Of a stretch of 36,197 nucleotides of DNA, positions 4,803 to 36,197 are shown in pieces; within the stretch, counting starts at the first letter, position 1; every line of letters begins with the position of its first letter. Below the pieces are notes generated by a model. The model searched no databases. It was given only the letters and a program-made list of their open reading frames with translations, and had not been told where the DNA came from. Source of the stretch: Bacillota bacterium (GTDB lineage Bacteria > Bacillota > Bacilli > Alicyclobacillales > SLC66); the NCBI GenBank assembly GCA_021821085.1, contig JAKACV010000025.1, positions 1 through 36,197 on the forward strand, in the 5' to 3' direction. A program made the position numbers and the translations under genes.

Positions 4803-5771
4803 GTGGATGAAACCTCCGTGCGATATTTTTTGCGGAAGTCATTTGAAATTAAGTGTACTATGATTCAGCCTGTAAAAGCAGGCGTATACCGTTTGACAAC
4901 AGAGGATGGCCGCGTGTACGGTCTAAAGAAAATGAAGTTTAAAAGGGCGCGATTAGCCTGGATGGATCACGCTTTGGCAGCGATAAAAAGACGAGGTTTT
5001 GCAGCTTATGCTTGGGGACCATGGAGATATCCGTTATCTGCACAGTATCCGTACGTGCTGACGGAGTGGTGCGAAGGAAGCACCGCAGATGCGACTAATT
5101 CGGAAGATTTGCGTTTATGTGCGCGTACTTTAGCAGAGTTCCATCTGGCTGGCGCAACAAAGGATGTTCGCGGTCCTGGCGAATTGGTTACACTTGGAAC
5201 TTGGCAGCAGCGATTTCAATTGGGTCATACATGGCTTGAACAGGCTTGGCGCGAAAAGTGGTCAGTGATGCGAGGGCAATTCATTTTGGCAAAGGAGTAT
5301 CCGCAACTGCGAGAGAGGGCGGAAACGGCTCTTGCGATTTTACGCAAACAACACGATGTTGGGTATAAACGCGTGATGGATGGCGTGCTATGTCATGGAG
5401 ACAGCGGACCTGCAAACTTTATCGTTAAGCAAACAGAAGTGAAAATGATCGATTTTGAAACGCTGCGTATAGATGCCCCGAGCTATGATTTGTTTCGAAT
5501 GATCCGCCTAGCTGGAAAACGAAACGGGTGGAGTGTAGATTCTTTACAGAGTATTTTACATGGGTACGCGGGAGTGCATGCGCTCACATCAGAGGATATT
5601 CAGTTACTGCGCGCATGGCTCACCTATCCTTATAAGGTGTGCAAACTGCTTGGCGAATATGCACATGTAAAAGGTCAACAGCGAACAATGATTGAGGAAA
5701 AAATTGCCCGTGCAATCAAGAAGGAAAGGGAACTGCCGAGCCTATTACAACATTTGATGATGATGCGGTAA
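4803..5771 (+). CDS. CotS-like / aminoglycoside phosphotransferase-fold protein
   Basis: The protein belongs to the phosphotransferase superfamily that includes the spore-coat proteins CotS, CotI and YutH of Bacillus. The Brenner-type catalytic loop reads LCHGDSGPANFIV, about residues 195-207. The metal-binding segment MIDFETLRIDAPSYDL follows about 15 residues later. The Asp/Asn of the loop and the Asp of IDFE are intact, so it may bind nucleotide. The GTG at 4803 has GGGGGG seven bases upstream and gives 322 residues; an open frame extends 28 codons further 5' without a better site. A BtuF-like gene follows after 21 bases, suggesting one transcript. The substrate is unknown; a spore-coat role is inferred from the family only. 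Confidence 0.8.
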   Translation: MDETSVRYFLRKSFEIKCTMIQPVKAGVYRLTTEDGRVYGLKKMKFKRARLAWMDHALAAIKRRGFAAYAWGPWRYPLSAQYPYVLTEWCEGSTADATNSEDLRLCARTLAEFHLAGATKDVRGPGELVTLGTWQQRFQLGHTWLEQAWREKWSVMRGQFILAKEYPQLRERAETALAILRKQHDVGYKRVMDGVLCHGDSGPANFIVKQTEVKMIDFETLRIDAPSYDLFRMIRLAGKRNGWSVDSLQSILHGYAGVHALTSEDIQLLRAWLTYPYKVCKLLGEYAHVKGQQRTMIEEKIARAIKKERELPSLLQHLMMMR

Positions 5772-5792
5772 AGACGGAAAGGTGGTATAAAT

Positions 5793-6917
5793 ATGAAAAA
5801 TTGGATTGACCATCTAGGTAGGTCGCTACAAATTACAGATTCGCCAGAGCGTATGATTTCCTTATGCCCATCTTTAACTGAGACGTTATTTGCATTAGGA
5901 CTTCAAGAACGAGTGGTTGGACGAACAAGATTTTGCATTCATCCTGCCCCGGATGTGTTGCAAAAGCAAAATGTTGGAGGCACAAAGCAGGTTGACTTTG
6001 CGGTGATTGATCGCCTGAATCCAGATCTGATTATTGCAGAGAAGGAGGAAAATACACAGGAGATGATTGCTGTCCTCGAACGAAAATTCCCAGTGTATGT
6101 CGTTGATGTGAAAACAGTTGAGGAGGCTAAGCGGGCAATTCATGATCTCGGGGCGATTACAGGTCGTTTGCAGCAAGCGGAGCGCATCGTCAAAGATGTA
6201 CATGCGCTGTTTGCCCAAGTAAAATCTGCAGCGGCCCGTAAAATGGTGTATTTGATTTGGCAAAAGCCCTATATGGCAGTCGGTAAGGATACATATCTTC
6301 ATTCCCTGCTTACGCATTTTGGGTGGATTAATGGGTGTGCAAATTTGCCTGGACGTTATCCGGAGGTGACGTTAGAGGAGTTGTGCACGATTCAGCCCGA
6401 TGTCCTGTTTTTGTCTTCAGAACCTTATCCGTTTACAGATGAGTATCGAATCGCGTTACAAAAGAAACTGTGCAGGACCAATGTGGTGTTGATCGACGGA
6501 GAAATCTCATGGTATGGGGTACGGATGATACAAGCTGTCGAGGAAATGGAGCGGGTGCGAAGACTGGTTGAGGAGAATGAGGAGCGGTTGCTGCAAGTAG
6601 AACGGTTTGGGAAGCTTGATGAGCATACGCGAGAGAAACTAGAGATTGCTTTAACACACTGGTCACATATGAAAGAGAGTGATGTAGATGATGCAGACCG
6701 ATTTCAAATAGCATTTTACCATTTTATAGATGACTTTACAGAATGGTGGCAGTCTCAATCGAATCTTCCACAAGAGGAGTACGATGCATGTCAATTGCCT
6801 GAAGTGCGTTGGATTTTCGAGCAACTGCCATCCGAACTTAGGATTCCTTTTGAGGGAGAATTGATCGAACTCGTTGAAGGACGGAAGCGAGAGGGGGATC
6901 ATACAGAACAATCTTAG
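5793..6917 (+). CDS. BtuF-like helical-backbone metal-receptor protein without signal peptide
   Basis: Residues 1-265 match the fold of ABC substrate-binding proteins for cobalamin and iron chelates. Visible landmarks are a MISLCPSLTETLFALGL start, a GGTKQVDFAVI segment, LNPDLIIAE, a long central helix and the second-lobe PDVLFLSSEPYPF. The protein begins directly with this domain. It has no hydrophobic signal and no lipobox, so it should be cytoplasmic and cannot act as a normal import receptor. About 110 further residues, acidic and helical with Trp-rich stretches (ALTHWSHMK, DDFTEWWQS), form a C-terminal extension I do not recognise. The start has AAAGGTGG upstream. It is coupled to the kinase-like gene before it and ends at a strong terminator. 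Cobalamin or another corrinoid is the first guess for a ligand. Confidence 0.8.
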   Translation: MKNWIDHLGRSLQITDSPERMISLCPSLTETLFALGLQERVVGRTRFCIHPAPDVLQKQNVGGTKQVDFAVIDRLNPDLIIAEKEENTQEMIAVLERKFPVYVVDVKTVEEAKRAIHDLGAITGRLQQAERIVKDVHALFAQVKSAAARKMVYLIWQKPYMAVGKDTYLHSLLTHFGWINGCANLPGRYPEVTLEELCTIQPDVLFLSSEPYPFTDEYRIALQKKLCRTNVVLIDGEISWYGVRMIQAVEEMERVRRLVEENEERLLQVERFGKLDEHTREKLEIALTHWSHMKESDVDDADRFQIAFYHFIDDFTEWWQSQSNLPQEEYDACQLPEVRWIFEQLPSELRIPFEGELIELVEGRKREGDHTEQS

Positions 6918-11968: not shown

Positions 11969-11996
11969 AGTGGGCACTCTAGATAGAGTGCCCACT
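11969..11996. terminator. Perfect palindrome between convergent MFS and copA genes
   Basis: AGTGGGCACTCTA (11969-11981) and TAGAGTGCCCACT (11984-11996) are exact inverted 13-mers separated by two bases. They begin eight bases after the MFS stop and 39 bases before the copA stop. Neither side has a T-run, so termination would be weak or factor-assisted; the location suggests a shared bidirectional terminator. Confidence 0.6.
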
Positions 11997-12034
11997 GGTA
12001 ATACATGTAATCGATCATTGCTTTTTGGCTGTGC

Positions 12035-14221
12035 TTAAGCCATGAGTTTTATGCTTTCTTTGCGTAATTGTAGGCTATTTATAACGACAGTTACAGAACT
12101 TAACGCCATAGCAGCACCGCATATCATTGGATTAAGAAATCCAATCGCCGCAAGTGGAATTCCAATGACATTATAGAGCAGCGCCCAAAATAGGTTTTGG
12201 CGAATTTTACGCATCGTTAGTTCAGACAATTCTAATGCATGTAAAAATCGATGTGTATCGGAACTCATGATAACAATATCTGCTGCCTCAAGTGCCACGT
12301 CCGTTGCTGTACCAAGTGCGATTCCAACGTCTGCAGCGACGAGCGCGGGGGCATCGTTCACCCCATCGCCAATCATGGCGACTGTTTTTCCAGCAGTTTT
12401 TAGCTCTTGAATAATGATTGCTTTTTGAGCGGGGGACCTGCCCGCATGAATATCCTCGATGTGGAGTGGATTCGCGATTGCTTGCGCCGCACAGAGGTTA
12501 TCTCCTGTGACAAGAATTACGTGAAACGCAGCATCGCGTAGTCGCTGTACTGTTTTGAATGCATCCGGTTTAATGGTGTCCGTTAGTGCAAGAACGCCCA
12601 TGGGAAGCTCCTCACTTGTGACAAACACTGTCGTTTTCCCTTGTGATTCAAATGCCGCTATCTGTTTTTCCAACAGTGAATCTAGTTGTTTTGAGTGGGG
12701 CTTCGGTTTGCCTACAAAAATTTTCTTGCCGCGAAGTATTCCTTGTACGCCAACTCCTGGAATTACTTCTGTATGGTCTGCCGATTCGAACTGGTATCCT
12801 TGTGCTACTGCACATTGATAAATAGCGGTTGCAATTGGGTGTTCTTGCTCTGCCTCCATTGCGGCAGCCGTTTTGATTAATGCGGCAGGAGTAACGCCGT
12901 GTATTGGCATGATGTCACTTACAACCATCTCTCCCGCAGTGAGTGTACCAGTTTTGTCGAAGACAACTGTGTCGATTTGCATTAAACGTTCGAGGTACTC
13001 TCCACCTTTTACTAAAATTCCACGTTTTGCTCCGATTTCTGTTCCTACCATAATTGCCGTTGGGGTAGCGAGTCCTAGTGCGCATGGGCAGGCGATGACA
13101 AGTACGCTTACAGCCGGTAACCACGCTGCATCAAAATTGCGCATAATCATCCAAAACAAGAAGGTTGCAGCGGAAAGTAGTAGGACGACGGGTACAAAAA
13201 TGCCACTAATCGCATCAGCCAAACGTTGCACAGGAGCTTTTGAACCCTGTGCCGATTCAACCATTTGCATAATTTGAGCGAGTAATGTATCTGAACCAAC
13301 TCGGGTAATGCGTACCAAAATCGAATTCCCCTGATTAATTGTGGCGCCTACAACCACATCGCCAGGACCTTTTAGTACGGGAAGTGATTCGCCCGTTAGT
13401 AACTGTTCATTCATCATTGTAGATCCGGAGAGGACAACTCCATCACTAGGAACTGGTTCACCGCGATAAATTCGAACGAAATCACCTACATGCAGGTCTG
13501 TGACTGGGATATCTTTCTCTTTCCCCGCTATAATGGTGTGTGCAGTGGTCGCTTCTAGATTTGCAAGTGTACTTACGGCATCACTCGAAGCCAATTTGGC
13601 TTTTTTCTCAAGTAATTTTCCAAGGAAAATCACCGTGATCACTGTGGCTGAACTGTCAAAGTAGAGTTCCGTATGTCCCTGTAGCCATAGTATGAGACTA
13701 TATCCATAGGCCACGGTGGACGAGAGCGCTACGAGTACATCCATATTTGTTGAATGATTAATCAGAGAATAGAAGGCACCTTTGTAAAAACGCCGACCTA
13801 CATAGAACTGCACAGGTGTGGCAAGTACAAAACTCACCCACGTAGGCAATGTAGAACTATGCATTTTGATCATAAAAAACATTTGGATCAAGAGAGGTAG
13901 AGTAAGTATGGCGGAAAGTAAAAATTCACGCAAATCAGCGCGGTATGCAGCCTCCTTTTCGATGCGTGATGCACGAATATCCTGATTGGTAACGACCTTT
14001 GCGCCATAGCCAATCTTGCCAATGGCTGCAACAACGACCTCCTCTTGTAGTGAATCATCAAGCAAAATGACATGGGCCTTTTCTGACGCTAAGTTCACGT
14101 GAATGGAACTTACGCCATCTAGTTTGCTCACTGTCTTTTCAATGCGCAGCGCACATGCCGCGCACGACATGCCTGAGATATCCAATTCAAATTCCTTTTG
14201 TTGTATGTGTGTGGATTCCAT
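12035..14221 (-). CDS. copA: Copper-translocating P1B-type ATPase
   Basis: This is a P1B-1 ATPase of 728 residues that would export Cu(I) from the cytoplasm or load copper enzymes. It has one N-terminal metal-binding domain (GMSCAAC, Cys20 and Cys23). Eight membrane helices follow, with the transmembrane metal site CPC near residue 377, the actuator loop GESLPV, the phosphorylation site DKTGT (Asp422), the nucleotide-domain HP pair in EQEHPIATAI and the hinge GDGVNDAPA. The ATG at 14221 has GAGGGGC just upstream. A TTG six codons earlier lacks a site. It lies 115 bases after ctaA on the same strand with no clear terminator, which suggests a link to copper loading of cytochrome oxidase as well as copper tolerance. 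Confidence 0.95.
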   Translation of the reverse strand: MESTHIQQKEFELDISGMSCAACALRIEKTVSKLDGVSSIHVNLASEKAHVILLDDSLQEEVVVAAIGKIGYGAKVVTNQDIRASRIEKEAAYRADLREFLLSAILTLPLLIQMFFMIKMHSSTLPTWVSFVLATPVQFYVGRRFYKGAFYSLINHSTNMDVLVALSSTVAYGYSLILWLQGHTELYFDSSATVITVIFLGKLLEKKAKLASSDAVSTLANLEATTAHTIIAGKEKDIPVTDLHVGDFVRIYRGEPVPSDGVVLSGSTMMNEQLLTGESLPVLKGPGDVVVGATINQGNSILVRITRVGSDTLLAQIMQMVESAQGSKAPVQRLADAISGIFVPVVLLLSAATFLFWMIMRNFDAAWLPAVSVLVIACPCALGLATPTAIMVGTEIGAKRGILVKGGEYLERLMQIDTVVFDKTGTLTAGEMVVSDIMPIHGVTPAALIKTAAAMEAEQEHPIATAIYQCAVAQGYQFESADHTEVIPGVGVQGILRGKKIFVGKPKPHSKQLDSLLEKQIAAFESQGKTTVFVTSEELPMGVLALTDTIKPDAFKTVQRLRDAAFHVILVTGDNLCAAQAIANPLHIEDIHAGRSPAQKAIIIQELKTAGKTVAMIGDGVNDAPALVAADVGIALGTATDVALEAADIVIMSSDTHRFLHALELSELTMRKIRQNLFWALLYNVIGIPLAAIGFLNPMICGAAMALSSVTVVINSLQLRKESIKLMA

Positions 14222-14336
14222 AGAGCCCCTCGCATCCAAACTTGTGGTGTGGAACCGCGTAGTTTGTCTATGTCGGTCCTTGCTTACAACTTATTCAGAG
14301 CAAGTCCAGAACATGCGAGGCGACGAAATGTATCAA

Positions 14337-15320
14337 TCAGTGTTCAAGAATGAGATGTTCTGCAGACTTAAGTCGAGAATGAGGTTCAGGTAGAGCTTGT
14401 AGTGCCATATAGCACATCGTACCAAAAAGTGCAGTTACGACAGCTGTATGTATCATTTGTGCAAGTAAACTAATATGACTTGCGATGAGTAACACACCAG
14501 CCGCTAGTTGTAACAAGGTAAACGCAAGTGTGAGAAGACTTCCACGCCATAAGTCGGGTCGGCTTTTTCGAATGACATAGGACTGCGAAACTAGGTGAAT
14601 GACGACGATGAGCAACCCAACTGCAATGGTGCGATGTAAAGAATCGATCCACCATGCGCCGTGTGGAGCAAGTCGCAGTTCTGTGGGAAGGACTAATCCG
14701 CGAAAGTGATCGGCCGTGCCTGAATTCGCAACATAAGCTCCGATATACATCGCTACATACAAATAGGAGATGGCAAACCAAACAGATTTTCCGTAGGATT
14801 TCGTTACTGAAATTGGACGTAATGTGGCAGTATGTGCAACACGGTTGCTAGCCTGTCGTCGATCAATTTGGCGGATGACGATATAGAGTAATAAAACTGC
14901 CGAAAAGGCAATGAGCGATACACCAAAATGCGTCGCCAGTTCTGTTGGTGGATCACCAAAGACGACTCCAAGAGCGCCCAGTAACGCTTCGATAAAAACA
15001 AATCCAATTGAAATCAGGGATAGTGCGCGCACTTCTACATAGCGACCATAAATGATCCAGGCAAATACAGACAATGCGATTAGAAGAAGGCTGACCACTC
15101 CTACTATTCCGCGGTGTGCGTATTCGATGATCGTATGAATATCCCAAGTGGATGGAATCACCTGATTATTGCAAAGTGGCCATTGTCGACCGCAACCAAG
15201 CGCCGAACCAGTGTCAGTGTCGATAAACCCCATGGTGTTAACTATAAATATACCAATTGGGCTACTGATGGACAATATTTTCGTGATTCGTTTACTGATG
15301 CCTATATGTAGCGGTTGCAC
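14337..15320 (-). CDS. ctaA: Heme A synthase
   Basis: CtaA/COX15 oxidises heme O to heme A in the membrane for aa3-type oxidases. The 327-residue protein has eight predicted helices in two four-helix halves. Conserved histidines occur in EYAHRGIVG, THFGVSL, DSLHRTIAVG and the MIHTAVV helix. An extracytoplasmic loop carries a cysteine pair (GCGRQWPLCNN), as in Bacillus CtaA. GTG at 15320 lies seven bases after AGAGGG; a TTG at 15338 immediately abuts the ctaB stop and has no own site, so the GTG is preferred. It is the second gene of ctaB-ctaA. Confidence 0.95.
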   Translation of the reverse strand: MQPLHIGISKRITKILSISSPIGIFIVNTMGFIDTDTGSALGCGRQWPLCNNQVIPSTWDIHTIIEYAHRGIVGVVSLLLIALSVFAWIIYGRYVEVRALSLISIGFVFIEALLGALGVVFGDPPTELATHFGVSLIAFSAVLLLYIVIRQIDRRQASNRVAHTATLRPISVTKSYGKSVWFAISYLYVAMYIGAYVANSGTADHFRGLVLPTELRLAPHGAWWIDSLHRTIAVGLLIVVIHLVSQSYVIRKSRPDLWRGSLLTLAFTLLQLAAGVLLIASHISLLAQMIHTAVVTALFGTMCYMALQALPEPHSRLKSAEHLILEH

Positions 15321-24663: not shown

Positions 24664-26358
24664 TTGTCCCTGTCTACAGTCGTGACGTGGGTTGTCGTAA
24701 TCTGTGTATTCTTGTTGACGATTAAACCACTTGGCAATTACATGGCTAAAGTATTTACGTTTCAGCGAACTTTGTTGGATAAACCGTTTGGCTGGATGGA
24801 AAATGGAATTTTCCGTGCGATTGGTGTCTCTCGAGACAGTACAATGACAGCCAAACAGTATGCGTTTGCGTTTGTCGGCACAAATTTGTTGTGGGCATTG
24901 CTTGCGTATCTCTTATTGCGGTTGCAAAATATCTTGCCATTTAATCCACAGCATTTTAGCGCGATCAATCCACTTCTCGCATTTAACACGTCAGCTAGTT
25001 TTACAACCAATACGAACTGGCAAGCGTATTCGGGCGAGAATACCATGTCTTACTTTTCGCAGTTTGGCGTGTTGTCCTATTTGCAGTTTGTCACTCCTGC
25101 GGCTGGCGGTGCGGTTGGGATTGCCGTTGTGCGTGCACTGTCAGGGCGGAAATTAGGGAACTTTTTCGTCGATCTTACGCTGGTCAGCACGCGTTTATTG
25201 TTACCTCTTGCCGTGATTGTCACGTTGATTCTCGTTGGGCAAGGTGTGCCTGAAACGCTCGGATCGTATCTGCAAATTCATACGCTTGCAGGGCAAACGC
25301 AAGTGGTGCCAAGAGGACCGATTGCAAGTTGGGAAGCAATTGAACATTTGGGGCAAAACGGAGGAGGCTATACGAACGCGAATAGTGCAAACCCACTTGA
25401 AAATCCAAGTGCGCTATCAAATGTTGTTGAAACACTTACGATGGGTCTTTTGCCTGTTGCATTTTTCTATTTTTTCGGTGCGATGACAGGAAGACGTAAA
25501 CTGGCTTGGACACTTATAAGTGTGGCAGGATCGATCTTTTTGATCATGCTTGCTCTTGCGTATTTTCCTGAGGTTGCGGGTAATCCCATTGTAAATTCAC
25601 TTGGATTAGCCACACATGGCAATATGGTGGGTAAGGAAGTTCGATTTGGAATGGGTGGAACATCAATCTTTGAAACGGCCACGATGGCGTTTACGACAGG
25701 TTCCGTAGCGAGTGCACACGATAGTTTTCTCCCGCTTTCATCACTCAGTTTCTTTATCGGCATGTTCCTAAATATGGTATTTGGAGGTAAAGGTGTTGGT
25801 TTTTTAAACATGATCATGTTCGTGATCATTACGATTTTCCTGATGGGGTTGATGGTGGGGCGTACACCGGAATTTCTCGGCAAGAAGATCGAAACCAAAG
25901 AAGTCACACTCGCCTCCATTGCGTTTTTGCTGCATCCTCTTTTGATTCTCGTAGGGACTGCCATCGCGGTTCATACGCCAGCTGGGATGCAGGGCGTGTT
26001 TAATCCAGGACCGCACGGACTGAGTGAAATTATTTACGGATTTACATCGGCTGCCGCGAATAATGGATCAGCATTTGGAGGGCTTGGTGCAGCTTTGCCG
26101 TTTTATGAAGTAGCACTGGGCGTTGTCGTTGTGATTGGACGGTATGCATCCATTATGGCGATGCTCTTATTGGCACAGTCGCTCCTGCATAAAAAAACCG
26201 TTCCGGAGACATCGGGTACAATGCATACGGATACGCCACTATTTGGCGGGATTTTGTTTGGCGCGATCATTGTATTAAATGCGCTCACATTTTTTCCGAT
26301 TATGGCGCTTGGGCCGATTGCAGAGCAGTATCTGATGATGGCTCACAGATTGTTCTGA
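24664..26358 (+). CDS. kdpA: Potassium-transporting ATPase subunit KdpA
   Basis: KdpA is the potassium-selective channel-like subunit of the high-affinity pump. The 564-residue length is normal. The four pore-loop repeats characteristic of this channel-derived fold are visible: TNTNWQAYSGE, QNGGGYTNANSANPLENPS, a TATMAFTTGSVASAHDS segment and FTSAAANNGSAFGG. The start is TTG at 24664 after AAGGAG. The order kdpF-A-B-C is complete, so the pump should be functional. The operon would be induced at low K+ through the upstream regulators. Confidence 0.97.
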   Translation: MSLSTVVTWVVVICVFLLTIKPLGNYMAKVFTFQRTLLDKPFGWMENGIFRAIGVSRDSTMTAKQYAFAFVGTNLLWALLAYLLLRLQNILPFNPQHFSAINPLLAFNTSASFTTNTNWQAYSGENTMSYFSQFGVLSYLQFVTPAAGGAVGIAVVRALSGRKLGNFFVDLTLVSTRLLLPLAVIVTLILVGQGVPETLGSYLQIHTLAGQTQVVPRGPIASWEAIEHLGQNGGGYTNANSANPLENPSALSNVVETLTMGLLPVAFFYFFGAMTGRRKLAWTLISVAGSIFLIMLALAYFPEVAGNPIVNSLGLATHGNMVGKEVRFGMGGTSIFETATMAFTTGSVASAHDSFLPLSSLSFFIGMFLNMVFGGKGVGFLNMIMFVIITIFLMGLMVGRTPEFLGKKIETKEVTLASIAFLLHPLLILVGTAIAVHTPAGMQGVFNPGPHGLSEIIYGFTSAAANNGSAFGGLGAALPFYEVALGVVVVIGRYASIMAMLLLAQSLLHKKTVPETSGTMHTDTPLFGGILFGAIIVLNALTFFPIMALGPIAEQYLMMAHRLF

Positions 26359-26382
26359 TCGAAAGGAGGCGAATAAAGGAGC

Positions 26383-28398
26383 ATGGCTAAGACAAATGAC
26401 TTGCGATTGAACAAGGAATACAATCTGCAAGTGCTAAAAGATACGTTTCGTAAATTGAATCCAGTAAAAATGGTTCACAATCCGGTGATGATGGTGGTGG
26501 AGGTGGGGACGCTTGTCACGCTGTGGTTCACATTTCAAGCGAGTAATCCCAGTAGCCGACTCTATAATGGACTTGTTACGATCATCTTGTTTCTTACGAT
26601 TTTGTTCGCTACCTTTGCAGAGGCGTATGCGGAAGCGAGGGGAAGAGCTCAAGCAGATTTCTTGCGTAAAACAAAATCGACGACGAAGGCCAAGATCCTT
26701 CGCGCAGACGGTGGATATGATGTGCGCGAATCAGAGGAACTCCAAAAAGGAACAAGGTGTCTTGTTGAACCAGGTGATGTGATCCCAGGTGACGGGTTTG
26801 TTGTTGAAGGAATAGGTTCTGTTGATGAATCTGCGATCACCGGGGAGTCAGCGCCTGTTGTAAAGACTGAACAAGATGCTGTCACAGGCGGTACTACGCT
26901 GATGTCTGACCATTTGATTGTTGAAATCACAGCCAATCCAGGAGAATCATTTCTCGATCGTATGATCGCGCTTGTTGAAGGTGCAAAGAGGCAAAAGACG
27001 CCCAATGAAATCGCATTGTCCGCACTCCTTGGCGTTTTAACTTTGATTTTTGTCCTGGTTGTCGTGACGCTGTCACCAATTGCACAGTTTTATGGACCGC
27101 ATGCCACGAACACGACAACACTTGTGGCGCTGCTGGTCTGTCTGATTCCAACAACGATTGGCGCCTTGCTCTCTGCGATCGGTATTGCCGGGATGAATCG
27201 CGTATCACAGGTGCATGTTGTGGCAAAGAGTGGTCGCGCGGTGGAGGCGGCAGGAGACATTGACACGATCATCCTCGATAAAACAGGAACAATTACCGTG
27301 GGTAATCGGATGGCGACAGAGTTCCTTCCTGTATCTGGGGTTACAGTCCAGGAACTAGCGAGTGCAGCATTGCTCTCATCCTTAGCGGATACAACTCCAG
27401 AAGGGCGTTCGGTAGTAGAACTTGCGCAAAAGCAGATGAATCTCACTCAGTTGCCTGAAACAGAGGGGGATCCCATTCCGTTCTCCGCCCATACGCGCAT
27501 GAGTGGGATCGATCTGGTAGATGGCCGTGAGATTCGCAAAGGTGCCGTGAGTGCAATTAAAGAGATCGTTCATGGGTCTCAAGATGAATTAGAAAAACTA
27601 GCCGAACAAATTGCTAGACAAGGTGCGACTCCGCTTGGCTGTGCAATGAATGGCAAGGCGCTTGGGATTATTTGCTTGAAAGATGTGGTGAAACCAGGTT
27701 TAAAAGAGCGGTTTCGCGATTTTCGGGAGATGGGTATCCGTACGGTCATGGCGACAGGAGACAATCGGATCACGGCTGCAGTAATCGCTGAAGAAGCTGG
27801 CGTAGATGATTTTATCGCAGAAGCGAAGCCGGAAGATAAGATTCGTCTCATTCGACAGGAACAATCCGAAGGAAAATTGGTTGCAATGACAGGCGATGGA
27901 ACCAATGATGCGCCTGCGTTGGCGCAGGCGGATGTTGGGCTCGCTATGAATTCTGGAACAATGGCTGCAAAAGAAGCAGGCAATATGATCGATTTAGATT
28001 CGAATCCAACGAAGTTGCTCGAAGTCGTCATGGTCGGTAAGCAGTTGCTCATTACACGCGGAGCACTTACAACCTTTTCGATTGCGAATGACGTGGCGAA
28101 ATATTTTGCGATCATTCCCGCATTGTTCGCGGCAGTGCCTACACTACGTGTGCTTGGAGCTTTAAACATTATGGGACTTAAAACTCCGCACGGTGCGATT
28201 CTATCTGCGCTCATCTTTAACGCGCTAATCATCCCGGCGTTGATTCCCTTCGCCATTCGGGGCGTTAAGTATCGAGCAGAGACGGCAGATAAGATGTTGG
28301 CCCGGAACATTTTTAACTGGGGTGTGCTTGGCGTCGTTATTCCATTTATAGGGATTTGGGGCATCGATCAAATATTGGGACTTTTCGGGCTAGCCTAA
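26383..28398 (+). CDS. kdpB: Potassium-transporting ATPase ATP-binding subunit KdpB
   Basis: KdpB is the P-type ATPase subunit that drives K+ through KdpA. In 671 residues it shows the actuator loop DESAITGESAPV, the phosphorylation site DKTGTIT (Asp299), the nucleotide-binding RMSGID segment and the hinge MTGDGTNDAPALAQADVG. The GTMAAKEAGNMIDLDSNPTKL segment is typical of KdpB. The Ser of TGES, phosphorylated to inhibit the E. coli pump, is conserved. GGAGGCGAATAAAGGAG precedes the ATG. A large open frame antisense to its 3' half is a shadow. Confidence 0.98.
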   Translation: MAKTNDLRLNKEYNLQVLKDTFRKLNPVKMVHNPVMMVVEVGTLVTLWFTFQASNPSSRLYNGLVTIILFLTILFATFAEAYAEARGRAQADFLRKTKSTTKAKILRADGGYDVRESEELQKGTRCLVEPGDVIPGDGFVVEGIGSVDESAITGESAPVVKTEQDAVTGGTTLMSDHLIVEITANPGESFLDRMIALVEGAKRQKTPNEIALSALLGVLTLIFVLVVVTLSPIAQFYGPHATNTTTLVALLVCLIPTTIGALLSAIGIAGMNRVSQVHVVAKSGRAVEAAGDIDTIILDKTGTITVGNRMATEFLPVSGVTVQELASAALLSSLADTTPEGRSVVELAQKQMNLTQLPETEGDPIPFSAHTRMSGIDLVDGREIRKGAVSAIKEIVHGSQDELEKLAEQIARQGATPLGCAMNGKALGIICLKDVVKPGLKERFRDFREMGIRTVMATGDNRITAAVIAEEAGVDDFIAEAKPEDKIRLIRQEQSEGKLVAMTGDGTNDAPALAQADVGLAMNSGTMAAKEAGNMIDLDSNPTKLLEVVMVGKQLLITRGALTTFSIANDVAKYFAIIPALFAAVPTLRVLGALNIMGLKTPHGAILSALIFNALIIPALIPFAIRGVKYRAETADKMLARNIFNWGVLGVVIPFIGIWGIDQILGLFGLA

Positions 28399-28441
28399 CC
28401 GCTGTGCTGGGAGGATAGAATGTAGAAAGGGGAACGAGAAA

Positions 28442-29041
28442 ATGAGACTACTTCGACCAGCGATTGGCGTGACAGTGCTTCTGTGGATCCTCTTAGGATT
28501 GGCATACCCGCTTGTCATGACGGGGATTAGCAATCTTGTCATGCCATATCAATCGCAGGGGAGTCCCGTGTATCAAAATGGCGTTCTTGTAGGCGCAACT
28601 CATGTTGGGCAAAATTTCAAACCGAATCCGAACTACTTTTGGGGACGCCCTTCTGCAACGCTGTCTGTTTCGACTGGAAAGTCGAAACCCTATAATGCGC
28701 TCAATTCAGCGCCAAGCAACGTAGGTCCGACAAATAGCGTATTACTTGCTCACATTAAGAGTCGTATTGCTTATCTGCTAAAGACTACGCCAGGTCTTCA
28801 GGTAGGGCAGATTCCAATTGATCTCGTGGAGAGTTCCGGTTCCGGACTCGATCCTGATATCAGTGTTCAAGCAGCGATGATTCAGATTCCGCGCGTCGCT
28901 TTGCATACACATTTAAGTCAGACCTTCTTAAAAGACTTGGTTCAGCAAAATACGTTAGGGAAAGATTGGGGTGTATTTGGGCGGGCTCGCGTCAATGTCC
29001 TAGAGTTGAACCTTGCTTTGTATAAGGCATTGCACGGGTAA
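28442..29041 (+). CDS. kdpC: Potassium-transporting ATPase subunit KdpC
   Basis: KdpC is the single-helix subunit that completes the KdpFABC complex. The 199-residue protein has one N-terminal membrane helix (about 9-30). Typical segments are GQNFKPNPNYFWGRPSA, the SGLDPDISVQAAMIQIPRVA motif and a C-terminal VNVLELNLALYK. AAAGGGGAACG precedes the ATG. It closes the operon; a terminator follows about 160 bases later. Confidence 0.96.
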   Translation: MRLLRPAIGVTVLLWILLGLAYPLVMTGISNLVMPYQSQGSPVYQNGVLVGATHVGQNFKPNPNYFWGRPSATLSVSTGKSKPYNALNSAPSNVGPTNSVLLAHIKSRIAYLLKTTPGLQVGQIPIDLVESSGSGLDPDISVQAAMIQIPRVALHTHLSQTFLKDLVQQNTLGKDWGVFGRARVNVLELNLALYKALHG

Positions 29042-29201
29042 ATGATGTTGTTGTGCGCGAGAAGTTCATGCCTGAAAGCGAAGGCGGGAGTAGTTCACGC
29101 GCTTCTGGGCTTGATTCGAGACTGCAAGACATATCTTGCGGCATTATATCAGACAGGGAGTTTCGACAGGATCATAATTATATCAGTATGGTTGTAACTG
29201 G

Positions 29202-29235
29202 AAAAAGAGTCTCTTTGTGAGGCTCTTTTTCTCTT
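29202..29235 (+). terminator. Intrinsic terminator of the kdp operon
   Basis: AAAAAGAGTCTC (29202-29213) pairs with GAGGCTCTTTTT (29219-29230) with one G-U pair, a 5-base loop and a T-rich end. The rest of the 29042-29493 gap holds a small GCAAGA-CATA-TCTTGC hairpin (29124-29139) and the next promoter, but no gene. Confidence 0.85.
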
Positions 29236-29310: not shown

Positions 29311-29339
29311 TTGACAAATAGGAATGTGACTGCTAAATT
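29311..29339 (+). promoter_or_regulatory. Promoter of the LacI-glycosidase sugar operon
   Basis: A perfect TTGACA at 29311-29316 and TAAATT at 29334-29339 are separated by 17 bp. Transcription would start near 29346, giving a leader of about 160 bases before the ATG at 29506. Confidence 0.7.
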
Positions 29340-29344
29340 AAGTT

Positions 29345-29364
29345 TAGGTGAAGCGATTAACCTA
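29345..29364. promoter_or_regulatory. LacI-family-type operator at the transcription start
   Basis: TAGGTGAAGC-GATTAACCTA is a 20 bp palindrome with eight of ten matching positions and the central CG step typical of LacI-family operators. It begins six bases after the -10, where a bound repressor would block initiation. The first gene of the operon encodes a LacI-type DNA-binding domain, so autoregulation is likely (inference). A further perfect 12 bp palindrome, AGTTAAATAACT, lies at 29370-29381. Confidence 0.6.
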
Positions 29365-29505
29365 GTTTCAGTTAAATAACTAAACGCAATCACCTCGTAA
29401 CCTACTCATTTATGGATGGAGGGGGAATCTTCGTTTCTAAGGTTGGATTGTACGTGTAATCGAGTACCGATAATGATTTGAACTTATATAAACTTGGAGG
29501 CAACA

Positions 29506-32500
29506 ATGAGTAACGAAAAGCAAGATAATTCCAATGTTCGAATCCAAGATATTGCGAGAGAAGCCGGGGTATCAGTGGCCACTGTCTCTTACGTGCTAAA
29601 CCAAAAGGGGAAGATCGGTTCGGAGACCCGCGAACGGGTCATCGAAGTGGCCGAACGTTTGCACTATCGACCCAACCCCGCAGGGCGATCGCTAGCGACA
29701 AAACGATCTAAGGCAATCGGTCTAATCGCCCCGAAGGGGAAGGGGGTAGTAGACCCGTTTTTTTCACTGGTTGCAGCAGGTATTACGGAGGAATCTACGC
29801 GTCTTGGGTATCACATTATTCTTGTGCCGGGAGAGATTTCAGGAGAAGAGGTTGTAAGCGATTTCCTGAATGCGTTAGTTGATGGCGTTTTTTTGCTGGA
29901 AGTGGAGCAGGATGATCCGCGCATTCGGATGCTGAAATCAGCACAAGTGCCTGTTACATTATTAGGCCGGACAGAAATTCCGATTGGGTGGGTAGATGTC
30001 GATAATTACCGCGGTGGATGGATGGCCACTTCCCATTTGTTGGAACTCGGCCATCGTCGCATAGGACATCTGGCTACACCGTATCATGACGCTGTTGGCC
30101 GCTTACGACGACAGGGGTACGAGGATTGTCTGCGATCATGGGATCGTGATTGTATCCCAATTGTGGAAGAGGGGCCGATGGATCGCGACAGTGGATATCA
30201 ATTAGGTCGGAAGCTTCTCATGATGAATCCGCGACCATCGGCCGTATTTGCAGCTAGTGACATCATGGCAGAAGGAGTAATGCAGGCGGCGCGTGAGCTT
30301 GGGATCAAGATTCCGAGAGATCTCTCTGTTGTAGGATTTGACGACATTCCTCTAGCGAGCCAATTGACTGCGCCGCTTACTACCATTTCCCAAAATGCCT
30401 TTGACATAGGTCGGCAAATGGCGAAGCAAATGGTCGATCAATTAGATGGACAATTTCCTGAGCAACACATGCTCATGCCAGAACTGGTTGTGCGCGAGAG
30501 TACAGGTCCAGTTTCACGAGTGCAAGTCGTACCGCGTGGAGGAGAGCGCATCACGCTAAAGTCAGGATCGTCATTTAGTTTATGGACACCGTCTGGCACG
30601 GTGGACCCTAATAAGGGGGATCAAGGAATTTTTTGTGCGGATACACATTGGTTGAATGCGTATCAAGTGCGCGTTGATGGATTACCTATGGACCCTGTTT
30701 GGTCTTCTGTTACATCTGAAGGATATGAAATGCGCTACGTTCTAGCATTGAAAGATGGCACGCTGGATTGTTACCGCCGGCTTGCCATGAAGGGAATGTC
30801 TTTGGTGGATGAGTGGCAATGGACTCATTGGGATGGTCATCAAGAATGGGAATTTGATCTTCAAGTGTCTCCTGATTTTCGCGATATCTTCGAATTGAGA
30901 GGATTCGAAGTGGAGTCAAAAGGGATTCGGAGATCTGAACTTCACGAAGATGGCAGTGAGCGACATTACTACATGGGCAAAGATGGTGTTGCTCGAGAGA
31001 TGGGCATTTCTCTGGAGCCTCGCCCATCAGACAATGAACTTGGATTTAAGCGATGGCGGATCAATGGTAGTGAAAAACAGGGACGATTCGCGATGCAAAT
31101 TGGCTGGAATGTTCTGAGCGGTCTACCTGGGCAAAAAATTGTCTTTCCTGACGAGTGGCCACAAATCAATGTTGATAATTCTACTTGGCAACGAGTGTTA
31201 GAGCGCGCACAGCAGGACATTGATTTGTTGCGTACTGATTTTGGCTTTGGTCCCATACTCGTAGCGGGATTACCTTGGTTTGGCACAATGTTTGGTCGTG
31301 ATGCCATCATTAGCGCGTTGCAGGTGCTCAGCGTGCAACCCTATTTGGCTGAGAACACATTAGCTAGTTTAGCCCATTATCAAGGGACTGTCGTGGATCC
31401 ATCCAGAGGTGAAATGCCAGGCAAGATGGTGCATGAAGTGCGAATTGGTGAACTGGCGAATACCGGAGTCATACCTTTTGGACGCTATTACGGATCGGTT
31501 GATGTAACGCCGTTATATATTACCCTCTTAGAAGCAACGTGGCGACGGACGGGGCGAGTTGAGCTTTTACACAAGTATCTTTCGGTTGCTGAAGCGGCGC
31601 TATCCTGGATTCAAGAGATGATTTCGAGAAGTTCACATGGATTGCTGACCTTCGATGATGAGCAGTCTGGTGGATTGGTGGTTCAGTCCTGGAAAGATTC
31701 CTCTGATTCAATGGTCTATGGGGATGGTCAGCAAGCTCGCCCTCCGCTTGCGGTCGCAGAAGTACAGGGCTATGCATTTCAAGCGTTACTTGCAATGGCT
31801 ACGATTTATGAAGCATTACATCAAATAGATAAGGCTAACGAATTGAGAAAGCAGGCTCATGAACTTCAAGAACGTTTTCATCAGCAGTTTTGGGATGAGC
31901 AATTACAATATTACGCTATGGCTACTGATGCAACCGACCGTCACTTAGATGTGTTGAGCTCTGATGCGGGGCACTGTCTATGGACAGGAATTATTCCCAC
32001 GGCGTATCGTGAGGCAATCGTTCACAAGATCATGAGTGATGATCTATTTAGTGGGTGGGGAATTCGAACCTTAGGTGCCAATGAAAAGGCCTATAACCCG
32101 TTCAGTTATCATCGCGGCAGCATATGGCCGCATGATAGTAGCTTAATTGCGGCAGGAATGGCTCGCTCGGGTTTCTTACAAGATGCGATACAGCTATCTA
32201 CAGCACTGATTCAAGCAGCGGATAGACATCCGGAACATAGGCTTCCAGAACTCTTTTCTGGAGTCGCAAGGACTGACTTCCCTCATGCTCCCTTACCTTA
32301 TCCGCTCGCATGTGCGCCACAAGCATGGGCATCGGGAACGCCTTGGATCCTATTAGAAAGCGTCTTGCACCTAGAGATTGACGCCCTATCGCATACGCTT
32401 GGCGTTCATCACGCACCACCTGAGCTTGGAATCATACAAATTCGTGGACTGCAAGTAGGCAATGAGACCGTAGATCTCGTGATTACTTCGGAACAAGTAG

Positions 32501-32544
32501 CTGTTGATCATTTGCCTGAGGGGTGGAGACTAGTTACTTTCTAA
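29506..32544 (+). CDS. LacI-family regulator fused to a glycogen-debranching-type glycosidase
   Basis: This one open frame of 1012 residues joins two normally separate proteins. Residues 10-55 are a LacI helix-turn-helix (IQDIAREAGVSVATVSYVLN), followed by the minor-groove hinge PNPAGRSLAT and a full sugar-binding core to about 333 (VVGFDDIPLA near its end). After a short linker, residues 345-545 resemble the N-terminal beta domain of bacterial amylo-alpha-1,6-glucosidases (GIFCADTHWLNAYQV). Residues 560-985 form an (alpha/alpha)6 glycosidase with PWFGTMFGRDAI (about 590-601), AEVQGYAFQAL (Glu752) and YHRGSIWPHD (868-877). The ATG at 29506 lies five bases after GGAGG; a TTG at 29494 overlaps that site. 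There is no signal peptide. It heads a sugar ABC operon behind a LacI-type operator. Substrate is probably an alpha-glucan oligosaccharide (inference). Confidence 0.92.
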   Translation: MSNEKQDNSNVRIQDIAREAGVSVATVSYVLNQKGKIGSETRERVIEVAERLHYRPNPAGRSLATKRSKAIGLIAPKGKGVVDPFFSLVAAGITEESTRLGYHIILVPGEISGEEVVSDFLNALVDGVFLLEVEQDDPRIRMLKSAQVPVTLLGRTEIPIGWVDVDNYRGGWMATSHLLELGHRRIGHLATPYHDAVGRLRRQGYEDCLRSWDRDCIPIVEEGPMDRDSGYQLGRKLLMMNPRPSAVFAASDIMAEGVMQAARELGIKIPRDLSVVGFDDIPLASQLTAPLTTISQNAFDIGRQMAKQMVDQLDGQFPEQHMLMPELVVRESTGPVSRVQVVPRGGERITLKSGSSFSLWTPSGTVDPNKGDQGIFCADTHWLNAYQVRVDGLPMDPVWSSVTSEGYEMRYVLALKDGTLDCYRRLAMKGMSLVDEWQWTHWDGHQEWEFDLQVSPDFRDIFELRGFEVESKGIRRSELHEDGSERHYYMGKDGVAREMGISLEPRPSDNELGFKRWRINGSEKQGRFAMQIGWNVLSGLPGQKIVFPDEWPQINVDNSTWQRVLERAQQDIDLLRTDFGFGPILVAGLPWFGTMFGRDAIISALQVLSVQPYLAENTLASLAHYQGTVVDPSRGEMPGKMVHEVRIGELANTGVIPFGRYYGSVDVTPLYITLLEATWRRTGRVELLHKYLSVAEAALSWIQEMISRSSHGLLTFDDEQSGGLVVQSWKDSSDSMVYGDGQQARPPLAVAEVQGYAFQALLAMATIYEALHQIDKANELRKQAHELQERFHQQFWDEQLQYYAMATDATDRHLDVLSSDAGHCLWTGIIPTAYREAIVHKIMSDDLFSGWGIRTLGANEKAYNPFSYHRGSIWPHDSSLIAAGMARSGFLQDAIQLSTALIQAADRHPEHRLPELFSGVARTDFPHAPLPYPLACAPQAWASGTPWILLESVLHLEIDALSHTLGVHHAPPELGIIQIRGLQVGNETVDLVITSEQVAVDHLPEGWRLVTF

Positions 32545-32609: not shown

Positions 32610-33896
32610 ATGACTAGAACAAAGAAAACGGTTGCATTGTTGTCTGTGGTGAGCGTGACTTGTTTGGGGATTGTTGGGTGTGGTACGACGAATAGCGCTT
32701 CTTCGGCAACTGGATCATCAGCGAAGGCGCCGATTACGATTGTGGTGGCTAGTTGGTCTGGAACAAATGTAACTAATGGCATTATTGATCAACAACTTGC
32801 ACAATTCAATAAAACCCATCCGACGATCCATGCCGTATATCGCCCTATTTCGGGTGACTATGAGACCATCTTAAAGACCGAATTTGTAGCAGGAGATGCA
32901 CCAGATATTATCACGCTAAATAACGGTGGCGAGGCGCCTACGTTTGAATCGGAAGGAGTCGTTCTCCCTCTCAATTCCTATATTAAACAATCAAATTTCT
33001 CTATGAGCGATTTTTACTCAGGCGCTATCAATATGTTCAAATCGGGAAGTAACGTATACGGCATTCCTCGCGATCAGTCTCCGCTAGCACTTTATTATAA
33101 TCCTGTGCTCTTTAAGAAAGCAGGTATTTTTGGCCCACCGACGACATGGACGCAGTTTGCGACAGATGCGCAAAAACTAACCAATCCTGCAAACAAGGTG
33201 TATGGACTTGTTCAAACACCCCAAGAACCACGTTGGGCAGAATTTATTACACAAGCAGGCGGTAACGTTATGAACAGTTCAATGACAAAAATGACATTGA
33301 ATACTCCGGCAGCTTTGAAAGGGTTTTCGTTCTTTGTAGATCTGTATCGCCATGGAGTGGCTGTACAACCATCGCAAGTTGGGGCCACATGGGGAGGACA
33401 GGCACTGGGTATGGGACGTGCGGCGATGACTCTTGAGGGGGCTTGGGCGGTTCCTTATTTACAAGATACCTATCCAAAGACCCAATTTGCAATCGCCCCT
33501 TTGCCCAAAGGTCCTGATAACAATTACAGCTTAGATTTCCCTACTGCTTGGGCGATAACAAAAGATTCGCAACACCCTAAACAGGCGTGGGAAGTCATTA
33601 AATATCTGACTGGTGTGGGTGAAAAACAATGGATCGAGCAGGGAGGATTGGTGACTGTACGCAAGTCGCTTATCAGTATGCATTACTATCAGGCAAATCC
33701 CATCTATCACAATCTGATTGCAGAGTTACCGCACGCTGTTCCTTGGAATTTCCCGAATGGATTTAATCAGTATGTGAATAGCACATTGTCGAATGTTTCG
33801 CTGCTCGCTGTTGCAGGAAAATTGTCTCCACAGGCCGCTTTACAAGAATTGCAACAACAGGGGACGACGATTCTCGCGAATCAGGGCAATCGCTAA
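32610..33896 (+). CDS. Sugar ABC transporter substrate-binding lipoprotein
   Basis: This is a family 1 extracellular solute-binding protein of 428 residues. A lipoprotein signal ends in the lipobox IVGC near residue 25, and a Ser/Ala-rich linker follows. The mature part has the MalE-like landmarks VVASWSG, APDIITLNNGGEAPTF, YGIPRDQSPLALYYNPVLFKKAG and the C-terminal AWEVIKYLTG. It would capture an oligosaccharide outside the membrane for the two permeases encoded next. GAGGAGAG precedes the ATG. Its TAA overlaps the first base of the permease ATG (TAATG). Sugar identity cannot be read from sequence; the fused glycosidase upstream suggests a maltodextrin-like or other alpha-glucoside. Confidence 0.93.
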   Translation: MTRTKKTVALLSVVSVTCLGIVGCGTTNSASSATGSSAKAPITIVVASWSGTNVTNGIIDQQLAQFNKTHPTIHAVYRPISGDYETILKTEFVAGDAPDIITLNNGGEAPTFESEGVVLPLNSYIKQSNFSMSDFYSGAINMFKSGSNVYGIPRDQSPLALYYNPVLFKKAGIFGPPTTWTQFATDAQKLTNPANKVYGLVQTPQEPRWAEFITQAGGNVMNSSMTKMTLNTPAALKGFSFFVDLYRHGVAVQPSQVGATWGGQALGMGRAAMTLEGAWAVPYLQDTYPKTQFAIAPLPKGPDNNYSLDFPTAWAITKDSQHPKQAWEVIKYLTGVGEKQWIEQGGLVTVRKSLISMHYYQANPIYHNLIAELPHAVPWNFPNGFNQYVNSTLSNVSLLAVAGKLSPQAALQELQQQGTTILANQGNR

Positions 33897-34816
33897 TGGC
33901 TACTGTCAGTATGTCAAACAAACCTAAAGAAGCCAGTATTCATCGTTGGCGACGACAAGAGGCGACAACTGCGTATCTTTTTTCGTTACCGACACTGATG
34001 CTTCTTGTTGCTTTTTCACTGGGACCGGCCGTGTATGCATTTTATTTGAGTGGAGTTTCCTGGAATTTACTGAACCACATGCACTGGGTTGGTATAAACA
34101 ATTATCTTCATTTATTTCAATCTCAACTATTCTGGATTTCATTGAAAAACTCGGTTGTGTTCGCAGCGGTCGTCATGCCGACGCAAACTGTTATTGCTAT
34201 GATTTTTGCTGTTATTCTCAATCAAAATTTGCCGGCTAGAGGAATTTATCGACTCGCTTTTTTCTTCCCGTCGATTAGTTCCTCGGCGGTAACCTCTCTA
34301 ATGTTTATGTGGATTTTCAATAAATTGGGATTATTGAATGGATTTCTCGCATGGTTGGGAATACCAGGCCCGAATTGGATTGGAAATCCCCATTTTGCGT
34401 TATCCGCGATTATGCTTCTGAATATTTGGAGTACGTCCGGTTACTTCATGGTTATATTTTTAGCGGGTTTGCAGTCAATTCCCCAAAATGTATATGAGGC
34501 CGCGGCTATTGATGGCGCTTCACGATTTCAGAGATTTTTAAAGATTACTGTTCCACTACTTAGACCATCTACTTTTTTTATTGTCGTCATGGGAATGATT
34601 GGTACACTCCAAATGTTTGATCAGTCGTTTATTATTTCTGGCGGAACAGGCGGACCGCTCAATTCGACGATGACGATTGCACTCTACATCTATCAGGAGA
34701 TTTTTTCTTATGGCCAAGTCGGATATGGTGCTGCGGCAACAGTTTTCTTGTTTGTCTTTGTCTTGGGACTTACGATCTTGACCAATCGCTGGTTAGGCAA
34801 ACCGATAGAATATTAG
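33896..34816 (+). CDS. Sugar ABC transporter permease, MalF type
   Basis: This is a membrane-spanning permease of 306 residues with six predicted helices. The EAA loop that contacts the ATPase reads YEAAAIDGASRFQRFLKIT, near residues 200-218. An N-terminal cytoplasmic stretch of 25 residues (HRWRRQEATTAYLF) is typical of MalF/UgpA-type subunits. Its ATG overlaps the stop of the binding-protein gene by one base, which implies translational coupling. No strong independent ribosome-binding site is visible. It pairs with the MalG-type permease 15 bases downstream. Confidence 0.95.
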   Translation: MATVSMSNKPKEASIHRWRRQEATTAYLFSLPTLMLLVAFSLGPAVYAFYLSGVSWNLLNHMHWVGINNYLHLFQSQLFWISLKNSVVFAAVVMPTQTVIAMIFAVILNQNLPARGIYRLAFFFPSISSSAVTSLMFMWIFNKLGLLNGFLAWLGIPGPNWIGNPHFALSAIMLLNIWSTSGYFMVIFLAGLQSIPQNVYEAAAIDGASRFQRFLKITVPLLRPSTFFIVVMGMIGTLQMFDQSFIISGGTGGPLNSTMTIALYIYQEIFSYGQVGYGAAATVFLFVFVLGLTILTNRWLGKPIEY

Positions 34817-34831
34817 AATGGGGGATTAGGC

Positions 34832-35674
34832 TTGGGCGGATCGCAGTCACGTGGATTTGGAAATTTGCTGTCTAGGGGGATCTACATTTTGATCCTTACG
34901 TTCGGAGCGATGGTCATGTTGATTCCCTTTTTGTGGACCTTGTCAACCTCTTTGAAACCACTTAGTCAGGCGCTTGTTTTTCCCCCGCATTGGGTTCCTC
35001 ATCCTGTCCTATGGGGGAACTACGTAGGAACATGGGATACAGTTCCCATGGCTCAGTGGTTTTTAAACAGCGCAATTGTATCGATTGTTGTCGTGATCGG
35101 GAATCTGGTACTTGATTCGTTAGCCGGATATGCACTTGCACGCATCGATTTTCGCGGGAGGTCCCTGGTCTTTTTTGGAGTCATCGCGATGTTGATGATT
35201 CCGTTTCAATCTATTATGTTGCCAGTGTATATTGTTTTAAGATCGCTTGGGTTAATTAATAGCTATGCCGGGTTGATTCTTCCTCAACTCGTCTCCGCAA
35301 TGGGTGTTTTTCTCATGCGGCAGGCATTTCTTGCTATCCCACGCGAGGTGGAGGAGTCGGCCATTATTGATGGAGCCGGGAGATGGCGCATATTTTGGCA
35401 AATGGCCCTTCCTATGGTGGGACCAAGTCTGCTGACGCTAGCGCTGATTATTTTTATGGGTTCATGGAACAACTTTCTCCTGCCATTATTGGTAGCGAAT
35501 AATCAAAATTTCTGGACCTTACCTCTTGGAATTGTGATGTTTCAGCAACAATACTATACGAATTGGCCTTACTTGATGGCTGCAGCGGTAATGGCAACCA
35601 TACCAATTACAATTATCTTTTTGGTATTTCAACGGTGGTTTATTCAAGGGATTTCGACGACCGGTATGAAATAA
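34832..35674 (+). CDS. Sugar ABC transporter permease, MalG type
   Basis: This is the second permease of the importer, 280 residues and six helices. The EAA loop is EESAIIDGAGRWRIFWQMA, near residues 173-191. The C-terminal end QRWFIQGISTTGMK is typical of MalG-type subunits. It starts with TTG at 34832, after GGGGGA. It is the last recognisable gene of the operon. No ATPase gene follows before the terminal repeat, so the importer probably borrows a shared MsmX/MsmK-type ATPase encoded elsewhere, or the gene lies beyond the window. Confidence 0.95.
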   Translation: MGGSQSRGFGNLLSRGIYILILTFGAMVMLIPFLWTLSTSLKPLSQALVFPPHWVPHPVLWGNYVGTWDTVPMAQWFLNSAIVSIVVVIGNLVLDSLAGYALARIDFRGRSLVFFGVIAMLMIPFQSIMLPVYIVLRSLGLINSYAGLILPQLVSAMGVFLMRQAFLAIPREVEESAIIDGAGRWRIFWQMALPMVGPSLLTLALIIFMGSWNNFLLPLLVANNQNFWTLPLGIVMFQQQYYTNWPYLMAAAVMATIPITIIFLVFQRWFIQGISTTGMK

Positions 35675-36178: not shown

Positions 36179-36197
36179 ACTTCACCAAACCCCTGCT

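Follow-up and report, generated by a model that had tools for sequence, protein, structure and literature searches.

The window, which is the whole stretch of 36,197 nucleotides that was analysed and which runs to the contig end at position 36197, carries a gene that joins a LacI-type regulator to an amylo-1,6-glucosidase-type enzyme (29506-32544, + strand). The gene is a single frame of 1012 codons, opening with an ATG at 29506 and closing with a stop at 32542-32544, without internal stops; a Shine-Dalgarno sequence (TTGGAGG) and its spacer can be read immediately before it (29494-29505, +). The encoded protein of 1012 aa begins with a LacI helix-turn-helix (residues 13-57; 29542-29676, +; Pfam PF00356, 65 bits), followed by a hinge that is helical in the AlphaFold2 model (residues 58-65; 29677-29700, +) and by a LacI sugar-binding core (residues 69-333; 29710-30504, +; PF13377 and PF00532), where the Peripla_BP_3 domain (PF13377) covers residues 176-333 with 130 bits (E 1e-37). 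A flexible linker of ~15 residues, delimited by pLDDT and by an alignment of five junctions (residues 336-350; 30511-30555, +), connects the regulator to a GDE_N_bis beta-sandwich domain (residues 351-519; 30556-31062, +; PF14742, E 6e-18) and an (alpha/alpha)6 glycosidase domain (about residues 556-954; 31171-32367, +; PF06202 and PF22422). In the latter, MGH1-like_GH (PF22422) matched residues 678-913 and GDE_C (PF06202) residues 583-944, both above the Pfam cut-off, as was GDE_N_bis. An earlier note on this DNA had proposed that a complete LacI head, hinge and core continue in frame into a two-domain enzyme, and both the open frame and the Pfam assignments bear this out.

The full-length AlphaFold2 model had a mean pLDDT of 87 and a pTM of only 0.66, so the mutual placing of the two halves is uncertain; residues 339-346 of the linker fell below a pLDDT of 50 and are predicted to be disordered. 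In Foldseek searches the modelled LacI half resembled DNA-bound PurR, CcpA and LacI. The enzyme half, modelled alone, reached a pLDDT of 90 and a pTM of 0.90, and its best match was the Thermococcus gammatolerans amylo-alpha-1,6-glucosidase (7vma), with 615 aligned residues spanning that entire structure (Z = 53.7), GH63 enzymes coming next.

The enzyme half shares with 7vma and the bacterial GDE_N_bis/GDE_C enzymes a common two-domain fold and active-site residues. It has the two-domain architecture, the fold and the catalytic-domain residues of the archaeal-type amylo-alpha-1,6-glucosidases; it differs from these enzymes by the N-terminal regulator, a diverged N-domain and a DTH in place of a DTR motif. 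Asp731 in WKDS (31696-31698, +), invariant in 28 unfused homologues and in the five fusion proteins considered below, is the probable general acid, a role assigned by analogy with this class of enzymes. The probable general base is the invariant Glu915 in LPELF (32248-32250, +), which fell at most one residue from YgjK Glu727 when the profile alignment was extended gap-free; we take Glu727 to be the base of that GH63 enzyme. A related glucosylglycerate hydrolase uses an Asp as acid and a Glu as base (PMC6608630), and the T. gammatolerans STB12 enzyme cuts alpha-1,6 branches (PMC9142091). Asp731 and Glu915 belong to a larger conserved set: the catalytic domain of the 28 unfused homologues has 37 invariant polar or aromatic residues, and all five fusions keep 35 of these. 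The catalytic motifs are therefore intact, as had been claimed, and we infer that the enzyme half is catalytically competent; judged from sequence, both halves look functional. Decay of the active site had been suspected from a change of YHNG to YHRG, and this suspicion was dropped because 7vma has YHRG too; a DRDGDG loop is absent from the fusions and likewise from 7vma.

Could the glycosidase half nevertheless be dead, and serve the repressor as a second ligand sensor or an oligomerisation module? Its GDE N-terminal domain has diverged strongly, with 18% identity between fused and unfused proteins versus 35% among the unfused ones, and the fusions carry the clade-specific changes R381H and Y716F. 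The first of these lies in the DTR motif (residue 381; window 30646-30648), invariant in the 28 unfused homologues and present in 7vma, which reads DTH in all five fusions. In one carrier genome (G058), the operon also contains an unfused GDE besides the fused one. However, the conserved acid, base and invariant residues argue against a dead enzyme, as does the window genome, which has no second homologue, so that the fused enzyme must serve the operon there. We thus regard a dead glycosidase as improbable. Rather, because the N-terminal GDE domain diverged strongly and DTR became DTH, enzyme specificity may have changed, and the drift of this domain may reflect either contacts newly formed with the LacI core or an altered substrate.

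The same fusion was found in 5/59 genomes of the window genome's order, spread over five genera and two families; one carrier genome consists of two contigs. The fusion proteins are ~60% identical over their full length, and in the four other genomes the junction is likewise crossed without a stop. A sequencing error at residues 330-350, which the earlier note had named as a possible refutation, is very unlikely given these four full-length homologues; assembly error or a hidden frameshift was ruled out by the five independent full-length fusions. Another refutation named there, a strong internal start, fared no better: at its junction the window gene lacks an in-frame start codon preceded by a good Shine-Dalgarno, internal-start candidates in the relatives sit at positions that are not shared, and separate products from such a start were ruled out for want of a candidate common to the fusions. 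What does resemble a leftover Shine-Dalgarno is a GGAGGAG at about 30538-30544, close to where the enzyme half begins in the window and correctly spaced before the next codon, yet this codon is ATC, which is not a normal start. The site is not evident in the other fusions, and is perhaps the relic ribosome-binding site of a once-separate GDE gene. With the in-frame fusion repeated in five independent genomes, one of them nearly complete, it is hardly credible that the gene makes two proteins or is a sequencing artefact.

The fusion was not seen outside the order in samples of the class (399 genomes) and of the phylum (398 genomes), which partly overlap and in which the two best candidates per genome were scored. 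Searching a genome-contig collection with the window protein returned only an archaeal GDE and no fusion, and no place in plasmid and phage records covered 80% of the query; among the matches listed, those in plasmids were GDE-only and those in phages LacI-only. Within the order, the best-scoring LacI heads listed lay in frames of 140-477 aa, with only a fusion being longer (1051 aa). The two same-genus genomes examined were both without the fusion, which indicates that the gene was lost or moved between lineages. In trees of each half the five fusions formed one clade (support 100/100 for the enzyme and 100/99 for the regulator), and one origin is thus the simplest reading.

Downstream of the fusion gene, the + strand encodes the sugar-binding protein of an ABC importer (SBP_bac_1; 32610-33896) and two permeases of the BPD_transp_1 family, A (33896-34816) and B (34832-35674), all assigned by Pfam and by the conserved operon. 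That the fusion heads its own sugar-import operon, as stated earlier, is thus confirmed by the three genes at 32610-35674. About 20 other Bacillota genomes have an operon of the order lacI-GDE-SBP-permease-permease in which lacI and GDE are separate genes, closely spaced or overlapping; in one of them (L075) lacI occupies 4844-5863 and the GDE frame runs from 5860. The fusion operon has the gene order of this unfused operon with its first two genes merged, and its domain content is identical (compare, for example, L045 and L087). Most likely, then, the fusion gene arose once, when lacI and GDE merged at the head of an operon that already had the order lacI-GDE-SBP-permease-permease. The pairing itself is ordinary, since a widespread operon places these genes side by side anyway; the novelty is confined to their covalent link. 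We found no report of a LacI-glycosidase fusion in full-text literature searches, beside which a domain-architecture listing may exist; the statement that no such fusion had been described therefore holds for the literature searched.

One carrier departs from this pattern: in G058 (locus L042) the fusion and three importer genes are followed at the operon end by a second, unfused GDE (12571-14700). The importer of G058 is of a generic type, its SBP being 32% identical to that of the window, versus 72-74% in the other carriers. Because an unfused GDE ends the same operon, the fused copy of G058 could be redundant or regulatory. Among the neighbours of the unfused operons examined, a single locus (L085) has an extra alpha-glucosidase, an alpha-amylase-family enzyme (NCBIfam TreC-like) located downstream at 11983-13683. 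This neighbour is a hint that the substrate is an alpha-glucoside; coming from one locus only, it does not make the neighbouring genes a firm guide to the substrate.

Upstream of the fusion gene we predict a sigma-A promoter (29311-29339, +) with TTGACA and TAAATT separated by 17 nt and an extended -10 TG, matching 10/12 consensus positions. Promoter-like hexamer pairs precede all five fusion genes, the -10 starting 13-20 nt before the core of a putative operator. In the window this operator, TAGGTGAAGCGATTAACCTA (29345-29364, no strand), is palindromic with a central CG and is conserved across the five fusion loci. The earlier note had read an operator here (TAGGTgAAgCGaTTaACCTA, 8/10 pairs), and its conservation indicates that the site is real. 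Indeed, a central-CG palindrome-like site lies upstream of every fusion gene, reading GGTGAAGCGATTAACC in the window and AGTTAATCGATTAAGT, ACTTAAACGTTTAACT, AGTGAAACGATTAACT and GGTGAAGCGCTTAACT in the other four loci. At zero mismatches the pattern RGTKAANCGNTTAASY occurs once per genome in 5/5 carriers, always upstream of the fusion, a uniqueness that is partly circular since these five loci themselves supplied the pattern; at one mismatch its places in the five carrier genomes are scattered. Because the pattern derives from these very sites, we used a leave-one-out matrix, which in each of the five cases ranked the held-out site above every other site of its locus; the window site scored 17.3 bits, and the next-best site in the 36 kb scored 10.5 bits. 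In each locus the operator directly follows a sigma-A-like promoter and so overlaps the predicted transcription start, a usual position for a repressor site.

Most unfused operons have another recurrent site, similar to TCSRAAACGTTTTSGA, and their regulators carry an Arg in the recognition helix where the fusions, with SVATVSYVLN in the window, have a Tyr (5/5). This joint change of operator and helix would be difficult to account for if the fused head did not bind DNA. It is conceivable in principle that the LacI half does not regulate and only carries the enzyme or aids its folding or dimerisation. Nothing speaks directly for this; the closest is the hinge residue before the Arg, which is Gly in three of the five fusions and Ser in two, where most relatives have Ala. 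Each of the five loci, however, has the conserved dedicated operator lying over its promoter, and the helix-turn-helix is intact in at least four of the five fusions, which makes a non-regulatory LacI half very improbable. Apparently, then, the fusion protein controls its own promoter, as far as sequence comparison can tell.

A large survey of LacI regulators described the family as having a "rigid domain structure" and its operators as even palindromes with a central CG (PMC4052901). The fusion has the helix-turn-helix and hinge, the PBP-like core and the even central-CG operator near a promoter that characterise this family; with 1012 aa it departs from the usual, though not strict, stand-alone size of ~330-360 aa. 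Like the local repressors PurR, CcpA, CelR and LacI, it has a full head, hinge, core and central-CG operator, and it too is predicted to autoregulate an operon for sugar ABC import. These repressors end at ~335 residues or with a tetramerisation helix only, whereas the fusion adds a C-terminal glycosidase of 660 residues. Such an addition appears sterically acceptable: in known LacI structures the C-terminus is directed away from the DNA, so an enzyme attached there can leave the operator unblocked. The fusion also shows that the supposedly rigid LacI architecture tolerates a large C-terminal catalytic domain.

A parallel in organisation is the trigger enzyme PutA, a catabolic enzyme and the repressor of its own operon in one polypeptide. 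At the sequence level the fusion shows the same arrangement, with an enzyme and a DNA-binding domain in one chain and an operator at its own promoter. The parts are different: PutA combines a ribbon-helix-helix with a proline dehydrogenase, the fusion a LacI regulator with a glycosidase, and whereas PutA senses through the redox state of its enzyme, the fusion has a separate LacI core available for ligand.

All together, we propose, with a probability of roughly 0.7, that the protein is a bifunctional, autoregulating repressor-enzyme which is also the catabolic glycosidase of its operon and which goes back to a single fusion. In this scheme, the LacI half would bind the operator at 29345-29364, as its conservation suggests, and repress the fusion-SBP-permease-permease operon. 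By analogy with the family, an imported alpha-glucoside or its product would bind the LacI core and release the DNA, and the C-terminal glycosidase of the same polypeptide, competent on the evidence of its conserved residues, would hydrolyse the imported oligosaccharide, presumably a branched or alpha-1,6-type glucoside. Induction would raise the repressor along with the enzyme, and the operon should shut down as inducer is consumed; because both activities rise in equal number, a self-limiting induction is expected.

A weaker form of this proposal, overlapping it, is a plain co-expression fusion, where both halves work independently, the link being due to chance or stoichiometry, and sensing is not coupled to catalysis. 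As lacI and GDE are adjacent and close or overlapping when unfused, one small change would fuse them, and the predicted disorder of the linker is consistent with independent halves. Against this, the fusion has been retained across 40% sequence divergence and five genera, and the fixed ratio of repressor to enzyme would alone have regulatory consequences. We give plain co-expression somewhat less than an even chance. At the other extreme, the fused glycosidase might consume the inducer of its own repressor, with core and active site in communication, so that one molecule would be sensor, switch, enzyme and timer; this stronger version of the autoregulating repressor-enzyme is speculative, and we consider it rather unlikely. 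The ideas in the earlier note that the enzyme hydrolyses the very sugar sensed by the LacI core, that the sensor resets itself and that the protein is enzymatically active on its operator are conjectural as well.

In the lac operon, repressor and enzyme are separate, so the enzyme can climb steeply while the repressor stays scarce. A repressor and enzyme in one molecule would force a different control law, in which induction produces as much repressor as enzyme, and the unfused operon of near relatives offers a natural control for it. Sensing and digestion would thus be tied in a manner unreported in the literature searched, and the arrangement could serve as a model for engineering enzymes that respond to sugars.

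Two further observations concern single loci. In the G014 copy (L044, about 1364-1429) an apparent one-base frameshift affects the beginning of the LacI head, where the upstream frame MEKETKEVRAVRI does not continue into ADLAKEAG; it is either a sequencing error or a true loss of the LacI head. In the window, the potassium-pump genes kdpABC (24664-29041) lie directly upstream of the fusion operon on the same strand. Between them, a hairpin with A/T tracts (GAAAAAGAGTCTC / GAGGCTCTTTTTC; 29201-29231, +) has arms of 13 nt that are 92% complementary; an automatic terminator scan made no call at this hairpin, which by its sequence is likely an intrinsic terminator separating kdpABC from the fusion operon.
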